Shown: piece after piece, positions 21,751 through 25,869 of the stretch
Numbering within the stretch: position 1 is the stretch's first letter
Layout: every line of letters starts with the position of its first letter
Source of the DNA: a bacterium
GTDB taxonomy: Bacteria > Patescibacteriota > Andersenbacteria > UBA10190
Direction: 5' to 3'
NCBI GenBank assembly: GCA_027624555.1
Contig: JAQBWN010000007.1
Span: 1 to 32,472 of the forward strand
Length of the DNA stretch: 32,472 nt
Notes under the pieces: model-generated
Databases searched by the model: none
Told to the model about the DNA's origin: nothing
What the model saw: only the letters and a program-made list of their open reading frames with translations
Program-made: the position numbers and the translations under genes

Positions 21751-21776
21751 TAGCCTTCGACTTCGCTCAGGCTAAA
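21751..21776. repeat. Dispersed palindromic element, copy 3, at the yifB stop codon
   Basis: AGCC (21752-21755) pairs with GGCT (21769/21770-21773) around TTCGACTTCGCTCA, followed by AAATAAA. It shares the TTCGA-N5-CTCAG-NN-TAAA core with copies 1 and 2. The minus-strand TAG stop of yifB lies in its right end, so the element may have replaced the original 3' end. Confidence 0.6.
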
Positions 21777-23319
21777 TAAAATCCGGGAGGGCTTCTGCGA
21801 GTTGCTCACGATACTGCAATGCTTCGGCGATATGCTTTGGTTCAATACTGGCCGATTCATTAATATCTGCAATTGTAAGGGCGACTTTGAGAATACGGTG
21901 TATTCCGCGAGAAGACAGGCGGAACTTTTCTTGTGCACGTACAAGCAGCGCCCTGCTCTCGTCTTTGAGCGCAGCAAATTCTAATAATTCCTTTGGTTTT
22001 AGCTCTGCATTTGTTTTTCCTTGCCTCGCCCATTGTTTTTGACGGCTCGTAAAAACAATTTGAGCATATTCCTTTGAAGAACTTCCTGAACGCTCCGTAG
22101 ATAACAGTTCTTCTGCGGGCACATCTCCCACTAAAACGTGCAAATCAAATCTATCGAGCATGGGTCCGGATATTCTTCGCTGATATCGAATAATATCTGC
22201 AGCCGAACAAGTACAGGATTTGCGCTTACTTCCTATAAACCCGCACGGACATGGGTTCATAGCCCCCACAATCATTGCTCTCGCCGGAAACCGCACGGTG
22301 TGCGCTGCGCGCGACACGGTAACCATGCCATCCTCTATAGGTGCGCGAAGTTGCTCTAATACGGTTCTTGGAAACTCCGGGAGTTCGTCAAGAAACAAAA
22401 CCCCGTGATGAGCCAACGTTATTTCCCCTGGCTTAGGGATAGTTCCTCCACCTACAAGAGCCGCGCTGGATGCCCCATGATGCGGGCTGCGAAATGGACG
22501 AGTATGCTTCAGCCCTTCATCTGCTGCCAAAAGCCCCGCGATAGAATAGATTGAAGTCACCACTAGAGCCTCTTCTCTTGTTAGTGAAGGCAATATTCCA
22601 TTCATTGCCCGTGCAAGCAATGTTTTACCCGTGCCCGGTGGACCAACCAGAAGACCGTTATGCCCGCCCGCAGCGCAAATAACGAGCGCTCGCTTTGCGT
22701 GCTCTTGACCACGAATTTCATTCATATCTATTTCAGGAGCAGTAAAACTACTTTCGAATTTTTGTTCTGCATAGGTACCAGGAAGAGAAGAAATAGCTTT
22801 ATGCTCAGAAAATAGCGTGATAAGTTGCGTAAGGCTCTCTACCGGGTATATTTCTATTTTATCAGCAAGGGGCGCTGCTTCTTTTGTGTTACCCGCAGGC
22901 AAGTATAAATGCTTTATTCCGTTTCGAACAGCAGAAAGTACGATTGGTAATACTCCTTTCACAGGACGAATACTGCCATCTAGCGCTAACTCCCCAATAA
23001 ACCAAGATGAGTTCAATATTTCTTCGTCTATATGAATTTGTCCGCTGGCGCACAAAAAACCAATTGTAATAGGAAGGTCATATAAAGAACCTTCTTTTTT
23101 CAAACTCGCGGGGGCGAGCGAAACTATCGTTTTTCTTCGCGGAGGAGTAAACCCAGAATTTGTAAGCGCGGCTGTCATACGCTCTCTTGATTCTTGGATA
23201 GCTTTGTCCGTTAACCCAACGAGCGTAAAGCTTGGTAACCCTTGGAGGACATCAACTTCTACGTCGACAGGAAGTGCATCAATACCATATACAGCTGCGG
23301 ATCTAATATGTGCGGGCAT
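21772..23319 (-). CDS. comM: YifB/ComM family Mg-chelatase-like AAA+ ATPase
   Basis: 515 aa, normal length. An N-terminal Lon-protease-like S5 fold domain (1-~170) precedes the AAA+ domain: Walker A GPPGTGKTLLARAM (~223), Walker B LFLDELPEF, a sensor region with NPCPCG, and a C-terminal Mg-chelatase-related domain with LSSRGIHRILKVALTIAD. ComM is a hexameric helicase that promotes branch migration during natural transformation; the family is also called YifB. In a CPR-like genome this fits DNA uptake, but no pilus or com genes are present here. The ATG overlaps the stop of the LspA-like gene by one base (TAATG), so translation is probably coupled. Confidence 0.93.
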   Translation of the reverse strand: MPAHIRSAAVYGIDALPVDVEVDVLQGLPSFTLVGLTDKAIQESRERMTAALTNSGFTPPRRKTIVSLAPASLKKEGSLYDLPITIGFLCASGQIHIDEEILNSSWFIGELALDGSIRPVKGVLPIVLSAVRNGIKHLYLPAGNTKEAAPLADKIEIYPVESLTQLITLFSEHKAISSLPGTYAEQKFESSFTAPEIDMNEIRGQEHAKRALVICAAGGHNGLLVGPPGTGKTLLARAMNGILPSLTREEALVVTSIYSIAGLLAADEGLKHTRPFRSPHHGASSAALVGGGTIPKPGEITLAHHGVLFLDELPEFPRTVLEQLRAPIEDGMVTVSRAAHTVRFPARAMIVGAMNPCPCGFIGSKRKSCTCSAADIIRYQRRISGPMLDRFDLHVLVGDVPAEELLSTERSGSSSKEYAQIVFTSRQKQWARQGKTNAELKPKELLEFAALKDESRALLVRAQEKFRLSSRGIHRILKVALTIADINESASIEPKHIAEALQYREQLAEALPDFI

Positions 23320-23567
23320 TATCGCCTAGTGTACACCCATATTGCCCAAATTGTACTAAGGACTATGCCAATGTCTGCTACGTTAAACATTAAAGACCCT
23401 ATAACAAACGGATCTCGCACATACCCTAGTCGCAACAGGTCTATATAATTGCTCATGCCAAATAAAATAATAAAAAAAAGAGGAACAATAAGGTATATGT
23501 CCCCTTTTTTTCTTAAAATACAGCCAACTAGAAGTATGAATGCCAGAACTGGCGGTATCAGCTCCAT
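23319..23567 (-). CDS. Half-size LspA-like (signal peptidase II-like) membrane protein
   Basis: 82 aa with three hydrophobic segments (about 4-18, 24-40 and 57-80). It matches the C-terminal half of lipoprotein signal peptidase II. SNYIDLLRLGYVRD (39-52) corresponds to the 'GN.iDR...G.V.DF' block with the first catalytic Asp (Asp43). FNVADIGIVLS (61-71) corresponds to 'FN.AD..I..G' with the second (Asp65). LspA is usually about 150-170 aa with four helices and an extracytoplasmic beta cradle; here the first helix and the cradle are missing, and Arg follows neither Asp as usual. Both catalytic aspartates remain, so activity, perhaps as a multimer, is conceivable. It is coupled to yifB by a 1-bp overlap and follows the DksA-like gene by 3 bp. 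Confidence 0.65.
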   Translation of the reverse strand: MELIPPVLAFILLVGCILRKKGDIYLIVPLFFIILFGMSNYIDLLRLGYVRDPFVIGSLMFNVADIGIVLSTIWAIWVYTRR

Positions 23568-23570
23568 CTG

Positions 23571-23879
23571 CTACGAAATAACAGTGGTAGCTGCGGGGTT
23601 AGCTCGGAGACGCCCTTCTGGTATAAGAATTCCGTCTTCAGTGATCCCGTATGTTTGTTTCTTTATTTTTTCTAACGCTAAGTCAATTTCTGTTATTCTC
23701 TCTGTTACTGCTGTGTTTGTAGCCTTGAGTGCCGCATAATCTGCCACTTCCGTTGCATTCTCTTCTTCGCTTCTCCCATAATCGGGAAAACCCGAACTTT
23801 CAACTGCCTCACCTAATAACGTTCTCTTCTCTTCTAAAAGGCGTTCTTTCATTTCATTAATAAAGTCTTGTGTGTGCAT
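23571..23879 (-). CDS. DksA/TraR-like protein without zinc-finger cysteines
   Basis: 102 aa. Two long helices with ENATEVADYAALK (40-52), resembling the acidic coiled-coil tip of DksA, are followed by LEKIKKQTYG and GILIPEGRLRANPAA (83-97), which correspond to the C4 zinc-finger region 'YG.C..CG..I...RL.A.P.A..C'. All four Cys are lost and the protein has none. DksA and TraR bind the RNA polymerase secondary channel to adjust promoter activity, often with ppGpp. Zinc-free variants are known in some bacteria, so function may persist. It starts the dksA-like/lspA-like/yifB/kinase operon and lies directly behind the structured RNA region, whose promoter may also drive it. Confidence 0.75.
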   Translation of the reverse strand: MHTQDFINEMKERLLEEKRTLLGEAVESSGFPDYGRSEEENATEVADYAALKATNTAVTERITEIDLALEKIKKQTYGITEDGILIPEGRLRANPAATTVIS

Positions 23880-23886
23880 AGTTATA

Positions 23887-24458
23887 TAAAAATTAGTGGA
23901 GCCGACAGTCCGGCATAAAAAATAAATTCTTGCCTCTGTCGGCTTCCGAGCTCGCGTTCACAGCCGTGTGAGGCAGATTGCTACTGATACCCTACTATAT
24001 CATCATTATCAGCAATAACCTGCCCCACATAGCATTTTGTCAAACGAGAGCTATGTGCATCGTCCTTTTGTCTGCTCAAAAGAATGGTCCCCTACCATAA
24101 TTGCGGTTCCTGATACATGTACTCGCATAAATGCGAAGTGCATAGGCGTACCTATCACCGCGATAATGTTCAAAAGAGCTAACCTTGTTTGATTTTTTTA
24201 TGTTTGATATGTGTGGCCCAGGCAGATGGGCTCGTCCTTATAGTGGGGGTGTACTATCCTTGTAAGGAAGCACGGGTAGAGAACATACTTCAGGCATCTT
24301 CGCTAACCGCGCTCCCCTTACTCTAAGGATCTTGATGTATTTAGTTGTAAATGTGCTTCTCTTTTATGTGGTTCTGAATGCTGTACGCGAGAGCATCTCA
24401 TCAGAACCATTTATTTGTTTTGCTTGTTTGTTTTGTTTGCGCCCCGTTTATGAGCGAT
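23887..24458 (-). ncRNA. Unidentified structured RNA or very long structured leader
   Basis: About 570 bp without a credible protein, packed with stems (arm positions given). 23901-23908/23936-23943 (8 bp) encloses an inner CGGCA/TGCC stem. 23958-23962/23967-23971 is 5 bp. 23972-23989/24007-24024 is a long helix of about 15 pairs with a bulge and an internal loop. 24026-24033/24050-24057 is 8 bp. 24065-24070/24077-24082, 24084-24088/24094-24098, 24124-24127/24132-24135, 24142-24146/24151-24155, 24216-24220/24227-24231 and 24369-24377/24401-24409 are further stems. A good minus-strand promoter (24465-24493) faces it, and the last stem is followed by TTTTT (23888-23892), like a terminator just before the DksA-like gene. 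I looked for tmRNA, RNase P and SRP signatures and found none. The strand is inferred from the promoter and T-run. Confidence 0.6.
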
Positions 24459-24464
24459 GTTTCA

Positions 24465-24493
24465 ATTGTAGCAGATATTTTGCCCTCGGTAAA
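24465..24493 (-). promoter_or_regulatory. Promoter of the structured RNA
   Basis: On the minus strand TTTACC (24488-24493), exactly 17 bp and TACAAT (24465-24470) with an extended TGC form a convincing promoter. Transcription would start near 24458. No protein start follows for almost 580 bp. Confidence 0.7.
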
Positions 24494-24601
24494 GAGTGTA
24501 AAGGCACTTTTTTGAACATATTTCGTATACATCTGTTTTGTAAGTCTTTTTTCACCAAAATATCAATGTATCGCAAGAACTTAATCAAAACCCACTATGT
24601 C

Positions 24602-24622
24602 ATGCCGGGCTTGACCCGGCAT
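24602..24622. repeat. ATGCCGGG hairpin element downstream of the 24637 gene
   Basis: ATGCCGGG (24602-24609) and CCCGGCAT (24615-24622) form a perfect 8-bp stem with loop CTTGA. It is 15 bp beyond the stop codon of the minus-strand gene. I recall very similar palindromes scattered in many bacterial genomes. There is no adjacent T-run; a GGGTTTTG lies about 15 bp on. Confidence 0.6.
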
Positions 24623-24636
24623 CCACGGATGACAAC

Positions 24637-25869
24637 TTATTTTTTTGTTTTTAAGTCTGCCCAAACGTCTAGCACGTCATCAACCAAAGAATATTCAACT
24701 TTATCAAACTGCGAGCCAAGACCAATTGCGTTCAATACCCCACCTTGAATAACCCCGCTTTCCAAACCCTTGGAATCTGCAAGAAGCGACACAAGTTGAT
24801 TCCCTATATAATCCTCGTTTGATACTACGAGAACTTCATCCTTCCCGCATAAGAATAAACCCTCGTCATACTCCTCACTTTGCAAACAGTTAGTGCCAGT
24901 GCTCTTCGTAAGAGAAAAATGAGCATTAGACTTACCTGGTATAAACTCATATCCAATTGATTTATCCGGAAGTGCAAAAGCTTTTTTTTGAGGATGCCTT
25001 ATGCCCTGCTCCTCGTCCATCCACGACCGTACGAGAGTTGCTGTTGTATCATCTTTTGCTAACACACCCACAGCAACTGAACTTTCCTTAATAGAGAGAA
25101 TAACTGCCTCATTATTAGATAGTAATCCTTGTAATATTCGGGGATGAGTTTTCGTAAAATGCATAAGTTCAGAGAGCCTACTCTCAACGGCGACAAGAAA
25201 TCCACTTGGGATTGCCGGGAATATATTTCTGCGCAACGTAATGAATGTTATTTCAGGTTGCATACCGTTTAGTTGCAAGCGCTTTGCATAACTTCCTACA
25301 AATTCTGAGGAATTCATATGAACAACAGCATGCAATGAGCCCCTATTTTCCTCTATGTAAAGAGCACTTAAACCATTATTTTTATTACCATTCTCTTGCA
25401 GCACAAATTGCACGTGCGCAGGCAAGCCACCTTTAAATACTGAGACAAGCGTTTTACCCATGGCCACAAAAGGATTATTACTATTTACCTCTCCTCCCTT
25501 CTCTGCAAGTAATATCCAACCTATGCGACGCACAGTATAAGACTGCGCTCTCAACTCCTGCCCTAACGAAAACTGGTGGATGATTTTTGGAATACCTGCA
25601 ATGTATTCTGCTTGACCGTCTTTCCTATACATAAAACGATTGAAGTTTTCCACCCCATCAGGAAGCATGTTTGCATAATCTTCATGGATTTTCTTTATAC
25701 CTAAGCTGGATTCCACGAAACTATTCTTGTATCCAACACTGTATTGTCCTGAGTTTTCCGGCAGTAATGCGCGAAGAAACCAAAGTGAGTACGAAAAACT
25801 TACAAAAACTGCGCACAACAAAATCCCTGTACACGCTGTACTTAGCGACCAAAATGACACTTTCTTCAT
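24637..25869 (-). CDS. Membrane-anchored unknown protein, DUF3352-like
   Basis: 410 aa. An N-terminal membrane anchor (about 8-33, WSLSTACTGILLCAVFVSF) is followed by a large extracytoplasmic part with few Cys. Sequence such as DEVLVVSNEDYIGNQLVSLLAD (starting near 355) recalls the DUF3352 pattern in which repeated half-domains end with 'D.+LVVS.......+L'. The family's function is unknown. The protein is the downstream partner of a longer protein of the same type (17 bp apart), so both are likely co-expressed and may form an envelope complex. The similarity of the two suggests old duplication, but identity is low. No protease, wall-binding or transport motif is visible. Confidence 0.55.
   Translation of the reverse strand: MKKVSFWSLSTACTGILLCAVFVSFSYSLWFLRALLPENSGQYSVGYKNSFVESSLGIKKIHEDYANMLPDGVENFNRFMYRKDGQAEYIAGIPKIIHQFSLGQELRAQSYTVRRIGWILLAEKGGEVNSNNPFVAMGKTLVSVFKGGLPAHVQFVLQENGNKNNGLSALYIEENRGSLHAVVHMNSSEFVGSYAKRLQLNGMQPEITFITLRRNIFPAIPSGFLVAVESRLSELMHFTKTHPRILQGLLSNNEAVILSIKESSVAVGVLAKDDTTATLVRSWMDEEQGIRHPQKKAFALPDKSIGYEFIPGKSNAHFSLTKSTGTNCLQSEEYDEGLFLCGKDEVLVVSNEDYIGNQLVSLLADSKGLESGVIQGGVLNAIGLGSQFDKVEYSLVDDVLDVWADLKTKK

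Follow-up and report, generated by a model that had tools for sequence, protein, structure and literature searches.

It is rare for a bacterial RNA to be several hundred nucleotides long and to have a deeply conserved fold. The OLE, ROOL and GOLLD RNAs are hundreds of nucleotides long, have an elaborate conserved fold, are restricted to certain lineages and are poorly understood in function; ROOL and GOLLD are described as phage or prophage RNAs that often lie near tRNA islands (PMC12286853). Patescibacteria are not named in the main text of a survey that covered 50 bacterial genomes (PMC11109978), and the open-access papers that were searched contained no report on noncoding RNA of Andersenbacteria or on large noncoding RNAs in the phylum. 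The RNA gene described here was found in a 32,472-nt stretch of DNA (hereafter, the window) from Candidatus Andersenbacteria (Patescibacteria), in line with the CPR origin assumed in the initial annotation. OLE, ROOL and GOLLD are its nearest kind, without a sequence or structure match (PMC12286853). Unlike ROOL and GOLLD, it is a single-copy gene with conserved neighbor genes. It also resembles tmRNA and RNase P RNA, which in these genomes are structured, single-copy RNAs of comparable size (320-600 nt). In the window's genus it has the layout of a long 5' leader or riboswitch ending in a terminator, i.e. a promoter, a structured RNA and a terminator-like hairpin before dksA, but unlike such leaders it is linked to no single downstream gene across the family.

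The region very probably encodes a real and new structured RNA whose fold is preserved by compensating mutations, and comparison among homologs establishes its strand, fold, promoter, hairpin end and conservation. We favor the view, with a probability of about 0.72, that it is a new, single-copy, stand-alone large structured noncoding RNA (ncRNA) that has its own sigma70-type promoter and terminator-like hairpin and acts in trans. New refers here to a putative RNA family without known relatives; no novelty of mechanism is claimed.

Locus and predicted architecture of the RNA

The RNA locus occupies the minus strand of a 757-nt gap that separates a hypothetical gene (24637-25869) from a dksA/traR-like gene (23571-23879, minus strand). 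Protein coding was rejected as an explanation, as ORF listing gave no plausible coding sequence in the gap upstream of the dksA-like gene, no long ORF, no sense ORF >40 aa within the predicted transcript and no ORF common to relatives. In the following list of features, f1 denotes the window's family, f2 a second family of the order and f36 a family of another class.

24506..24519, minus strand: ATGTTCAAAAAAGT element (ATGTGTNCAAAAAAG-like) upstream of the promoter, conserved in f1 in aligned upstream sequences
24465..24493, minus strand: sigma70-type promoter, TTTACC-17-TACAAT, with TG before the -10; every homolog is preceded by an equivalent one
23888..24459, minus strand: predicted ncRNA transcript, ~572 nt, ends placed from promoter and U-run
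24440..24456, minus strand: 5' hairpin H1, pairing kept with altered sequence in relatives (by eye)
24409..24439, minus strand: A/C-rich unpaired linker (homolog comparison)
24370..24408, minus strand: hairpin H2 (RNAalifold on genus; two pairs doubly changed)
24262..24321, minus strand: long hairpin H3, strands 24307-24321 and 24262-24276 (RNAalifold on genus)
24238..24249, minus strand: core long-range helix A, 5' strand (covariation and strand permutation)
24216..24231, minus strand: core hairpin 1 (3/5 pairs doubly changed in sequence alignments)
24183..24215, minus strand: A-rich unpaired strand, kept in all homologs
24162..24182, minus strand: conserved motif around CYUUUG (UUGNNCYUUUG in most homologs)
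24103..24161, minus strand: core hairpin 2, with GCGG/CCGC base, internal loop and covarying upper stem (MAFFT alignments)
24089..24100, minus strand: core long-range helix A, 3' strand (covariation and strand permutation)
24062..24085, minus strand: hairpin 3 (doubly changed pairs: 2/7 in the five-species alignment, 7/7 in the model-fitted alignment)
24042..24052, minus strand: long-range helix B, 5' strand (RNAalifold on genus; homolog partner comparison)
23972..24025, minus strand: hairpin H4, the long imperfect helix 23972-23989/24007-24024 (RNAalifold on genus, columns 470-490 with 504-524)
23949..23959, minus strand: long-range helix B, 3' strand, GAGCU (RNAalifold on genus; homolog partner comparison)
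23888..23947, minus strand: 3' terminator-like hairpin 23936-23947/23898-23908 and U-rich tail; a counterpart occurs in every homolog
23571..23879, minus strand: dksA/traR-like gene, zinc-finger cysteines absent (context; probably fed by read-through)
23319..23567, minus strand: lspA-like gene (context; Peptidase_A8 match, 2.9e-7)
21772..23319, minus strand: yifB-like gene (context; Mg_chelatase match, 4e-88)

The promoter proposed in the initial annotation is present at 24493-24465 and recurs before 14/14 homologs, with a weak -35 in two of them (G001 and G007). The element at 24506-24519 is possibly an activator site or an UP element. Farther upstream, between the hypothetical gene and the promoter, a palindrome around ATGCCGGGTCAAGCCCGGCAT lies at 24598-24632 and is perhaps the terminator of the upstream gene or a dispersed repeat. 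At the other end, the stem and T-run that had been noted before dksA are both there, although the stem measures 11-12 bp and not 8; it carries a long loop and is followed by ACTAATTTTT at 23888-23897. A simple terminator scan with loops limited to 3-8 does not call this hairpin, and the equivalent hairpin of several relatives has stronger U-runs.

Helix A encloses hairpin 1, the A-rich strand, the CYUUUG motif and hairpin 2, and organizes them into a core domain; helix B encloses H4 and organizes a 3' domain immediately ahead of the terminator. Length varies from ~320 to 740 nt across species, and the spacing between helix A and the end of the RNA keeps to a narrow range (187-214 nt in f1, 179 in f2 and 120-145 in f36). 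All f36 RNAs are 319-433 nt long and are shortened on the 5' side, and they keep helix A, the A-rich strand, the motif, a helix B candidate and the terminator hairpin. The H3 loop carries CCCCC in four other f1 genera and in f2. A hairpin with a conserved UUCCCCCU/CUCCCCCU loop was observed in the 5' third of the RNA (L024, L025, L026, L027 and L028); it occurs in four f1 genera and f2, is absent from the window's genus, and its loop resembles an anti-Shine-Dalgarno sequence. A hammerhead-like reading of H2 (CUGAUGAG...CGCGAA) was dropped because CUGAUGA is itself part of a conserved stem.

Folding energy and compensatory change

The minus strand folds far below its controls. For a 585-nt stretch the minimum free energy was -186 kcal/mol vs -140.6 +/- 6.7 for dinucleotide shuffles (z -6.78), which together with the ORF results bears out the earlier description of the region as hairpin-dense and protein-free. 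The exact stretch 23888..24459 gave a z of -7.55, and z was negative in all 14 homologs (-3.3 to -10.7). Folding of the plus strand is weaker (z -4.2), but in each of the homologs the antisense strand, too, folds better than its shuffles. The z value by itself therefore does not set the strand, which is fixed by the promoter, the hairpin with its U-run and covariation that tolerates G-U pairs.

Covariation was assessed in five- and eight-species MAFFT alignments, which are sequence-based and not fitted to structure. Long variable loops had been removed beforehand from alignments A2 and A6 (a 160-nt insert of G009 and the hairpin 2 loops), together with one G and one C near hairpin 1 of G007 in A6, and a MAFFT alignment including f2 was discarded because helix A was misplaced in it. 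In the five-species alignment 94.5% of cells pair and 11/33 pairs are doubly changed (0/500 shuffles), with shuffled and slid controls nowhere near the observed pairing. The eight-species alignment has 12/26 doubly changed pairs (0/500 shuffles), seven of them among the 12 pairs of helix A. A 12-species alignment gave 28/33, a count that comes from an alignment made with a covariance model and hence fitted to structure. Across 12 distinct pairs of helix A strands, pairing was 90% vs 73% with partners permuted, and 0/20000 permutations were as good. The sequences of the two strands are CCCCCACUAUAA/UUAUGGUAGGGG in the window, CCUUUGAUGCGA/UCGCAGCUAAGG in G005, UCUUAACUGUGA/UCACAGUUAGGG in G007 and AGGUGUCUCUGA/UCGGAGUCACCG in G011.

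RNAalifold on the genus alone returned 106 pairs, 22 of them doubly changed, and recovered helices A and B, H2, H3 and H4 without manual input. The long imperfect helix singled out in the initial annotation is thus real and shows partial covariation inside the genus. The strands of helix B are AGCUCUCGUUU/GAACGCGAGCU in the window, AGCUCCUAUGAG/CUUAUACGAGCU in G005, GUUCAAGG/CCUUGGAC in G010 and GCUCUAAG/CUUAGGGC in its sister G011. Every homolog has a candidate partner for this helix, ending 52-64 nt before the RNA end, a count that is descriptive because the strands outside the genus were chosen by eye. Covariation in related CPR intergenic regions had been named at the outset as a check on function; compensatory changes exceed those in controls, as in a conserved structured ncRNA, and the alignments indicate that the fold is under selection.

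That the region holds no functional RNA, and is an intergenic stretch with chance or repeat-derived hairpins, is hardly credible on these data. The RNA is known here from its sequence, with ends placed by prediction, and both strands fold well, which would suit such a view; against it, the compensatory changes greatly exceed what shuffled, slid and permuted controls give, in alignments that were not fitted to structure, and the promoter and the end are conserved.

A distinctly improbable variant of the fold is a two-state core, in which the 5' strand of helix A would pair first with an upstream near-repeat and then with the downstream strand. Such a conformational switch could apply to a trans-acting RNA or to a cis leader. 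Upstream in f36 and f2 there is a ACGGUAGGGG-like or UUGGAGUCACC element whose match to the 5' strand equals that of the downstream partner; in L106, L107, L108, L110 and L028 (f36 and f2), the upstream near-repeat of the 3' strand can pair with this 5' strand. The upstream element is, however, absent in seven of eight f1 genomes and weak in the window (p 0.04, uncorrected), and a duplicated strand could equally be due to chance or history.

Distribution and neighboring genes

DNA searches found one copy of the ncRNA in the window's genome, and each of the four genomes of the genus has a homolog of ~70% identity. Model R1, a covariance model for the core, was built from five sequences, none of them from f36, and matched 10/13 genomes of the order in two families; of the three genomes of the order without a match, two are ~80% complete and one is 95%. 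In a set of 380 genomes sampled evenly across the phylum, R1 matched 14, comprising the ten of the order, three of f36 and one inside an ORF. A further model, R3, which includes the three f36 sequences and excludes G052, recovered G052 (f36; E 4e-11), so that 4/4 f36 genomes carry the RNA. It was absent in five genomes of f25, the other family of that class. For f2, model R2 had a lower sensitivity than R1. In total the ncRNA is present in 14 genomes from two Patescibacteria classes.

Several matches were rejected as chance, namely L109 (in a methyltransferase-like ORF), L112 and L114 (in ORFs), and L113 and L115 (unconvincing); their E-values of 4e-4 to 7e-3 per genome are about the chance level for 380 genomes. 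The weak matches in four other genomes (E 0.002-0.007) are at chance level for this number of genomes and lie mostly in ORFs. A scan of named genomes with a degenerate DNA pattern returned 68 loci, of which just six were confirmed by R1, a Kerfeldbacteria match not being among them, and was set aside.

The initial annotation had identified the downstream genes as dksA-, lspA- and yifB-like. The last two assignments agree with the Pfam matches listed above. For the first, the protein in the window has no Pfam match because its zinc-finger cysteines are gone; its f2 counterpart (L028:1871-2227) matches zf-dskA_traR (1.6e-8). The cysteines of the dksA/traR-like protein are lost in f1, and a recognizable C4 finger is kept in f2.

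The RNA precedes dksA in all Andersenbacteria examined, with lspA mostly downstream as well, and a cis role keeps some probability because of this synteny. The region would then be a leader in which a riboswitch-like or attenuator fold decides passage through the terminator-like hairpin into dksA-lspA-yifB, a possibility that had been raised from the outset and that we consider unlikely. The arrangement speaks for it in 7/14 homologs, whose hairpin stops 5-35 nt short of a dksA gene on the same strand; in the window the spacing is 8 nt, and no promoter-like site other than that of the ncRNA lies between the upstream gene and dksA. This direct position is not shared by the remaining members, however: three genera have strong U-runs and gaps of 225, 312 and 442 nt, and in the four f36 genomes dksA does not adjoin the RNA and other genes follow. 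An alternative terminator/antiterminator pairing was looked for in f1 and none was found. Leaders are also usually shorter than 320-740 nt. The leader function would thus be at most a side role in some lineages.

The option of an independent ncRNA, likewise considered in the initial annotation, agrees better with the full set of observations: no Rfam match, presence in 14 genomes, strong covariation, a conserved promoter and 3' hairpin, and retention where dksA is not adjacent. As such, the stand-alone RNA would be transcribed from its own sigma70-type promoter, presumably constitutively, and ended by the terminator-like hairpin. In the window's genus some transcription would pass the terminator and supply the dksA-lspA-yifB mRNA, which is probable because of the 8-nt gap and the lack of a promoter between.

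No protein gene was found to accompany the RNA in every genome. Upstream of it, a DinG-like helicase gene is present in f36 and in G009 (L106:53-1225, L110:4-1257 and L005:137-949). These genes match each other at E 1e-10 in pairwise comparison, and the G009 copy has a Helicase_C_2 match, with no Pfam match for the f36 versions. Their shared position supports common descent of the ncRNA locus.

Relation to known RNAs and possible function

Rfam 15 was searched with the whole window at gathering thresholds and returned four tRNAs only; with no match to the ncRNA, its novelty stands. Relaxing the threshold to E up to 10 for a 781-base region gave chance matches only (E 0.035-7), and ten homolog loci gave no match at E <= 0.1. 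The absence of tmRNA, RNase P and SRP signatures noted from the letters alone was borne out by model searches at the locus. The genome has its own tmRNA (RF00023) at G000:C11:21760-22157 (77 bits), ARAGORN reporting none in the window, and its own RNase P RNA (RF00010) at G000:C28:16712-17050 (210 bits), so the ncRNA is neither. OLE, ROOL and GOLLD were rejected as identities, as their Rfam models match neither the window nor the ten homolog loci.

SRP RNA (RF00169, RF01854) was also rejected, as its models do not match the locus and none of the 14 RNAs carries the strict helix 8 pattern. The small and large bacterial SRP models found nothing in ten genomes of the window's family (G000-G009), although most control genomes respond, and the SRP RNA of this family may be highly diverged or missing. 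For this reason SRP RNA was proposed as the candidate in a further reading, in which the ncRNA would be a housekeeping RNA that replaces a universal RNA or is a highly altered form of one; this we regard as a long shot.

The trans-acting ncRNA would most likely work as the RNA part of a ribonucleoprotein or in an RNA-only assembly, with the A-rich strand and the CYUUUG motif as a putative contact surface. The genomes that carry it are about 0.6-1.4 Mb in size, and retention of a single copy in such small genomes across two classes argues for an important role. With the covariance models and the 14-sequence set, the ncRNA can be looked for directly in metatranscriptomes.
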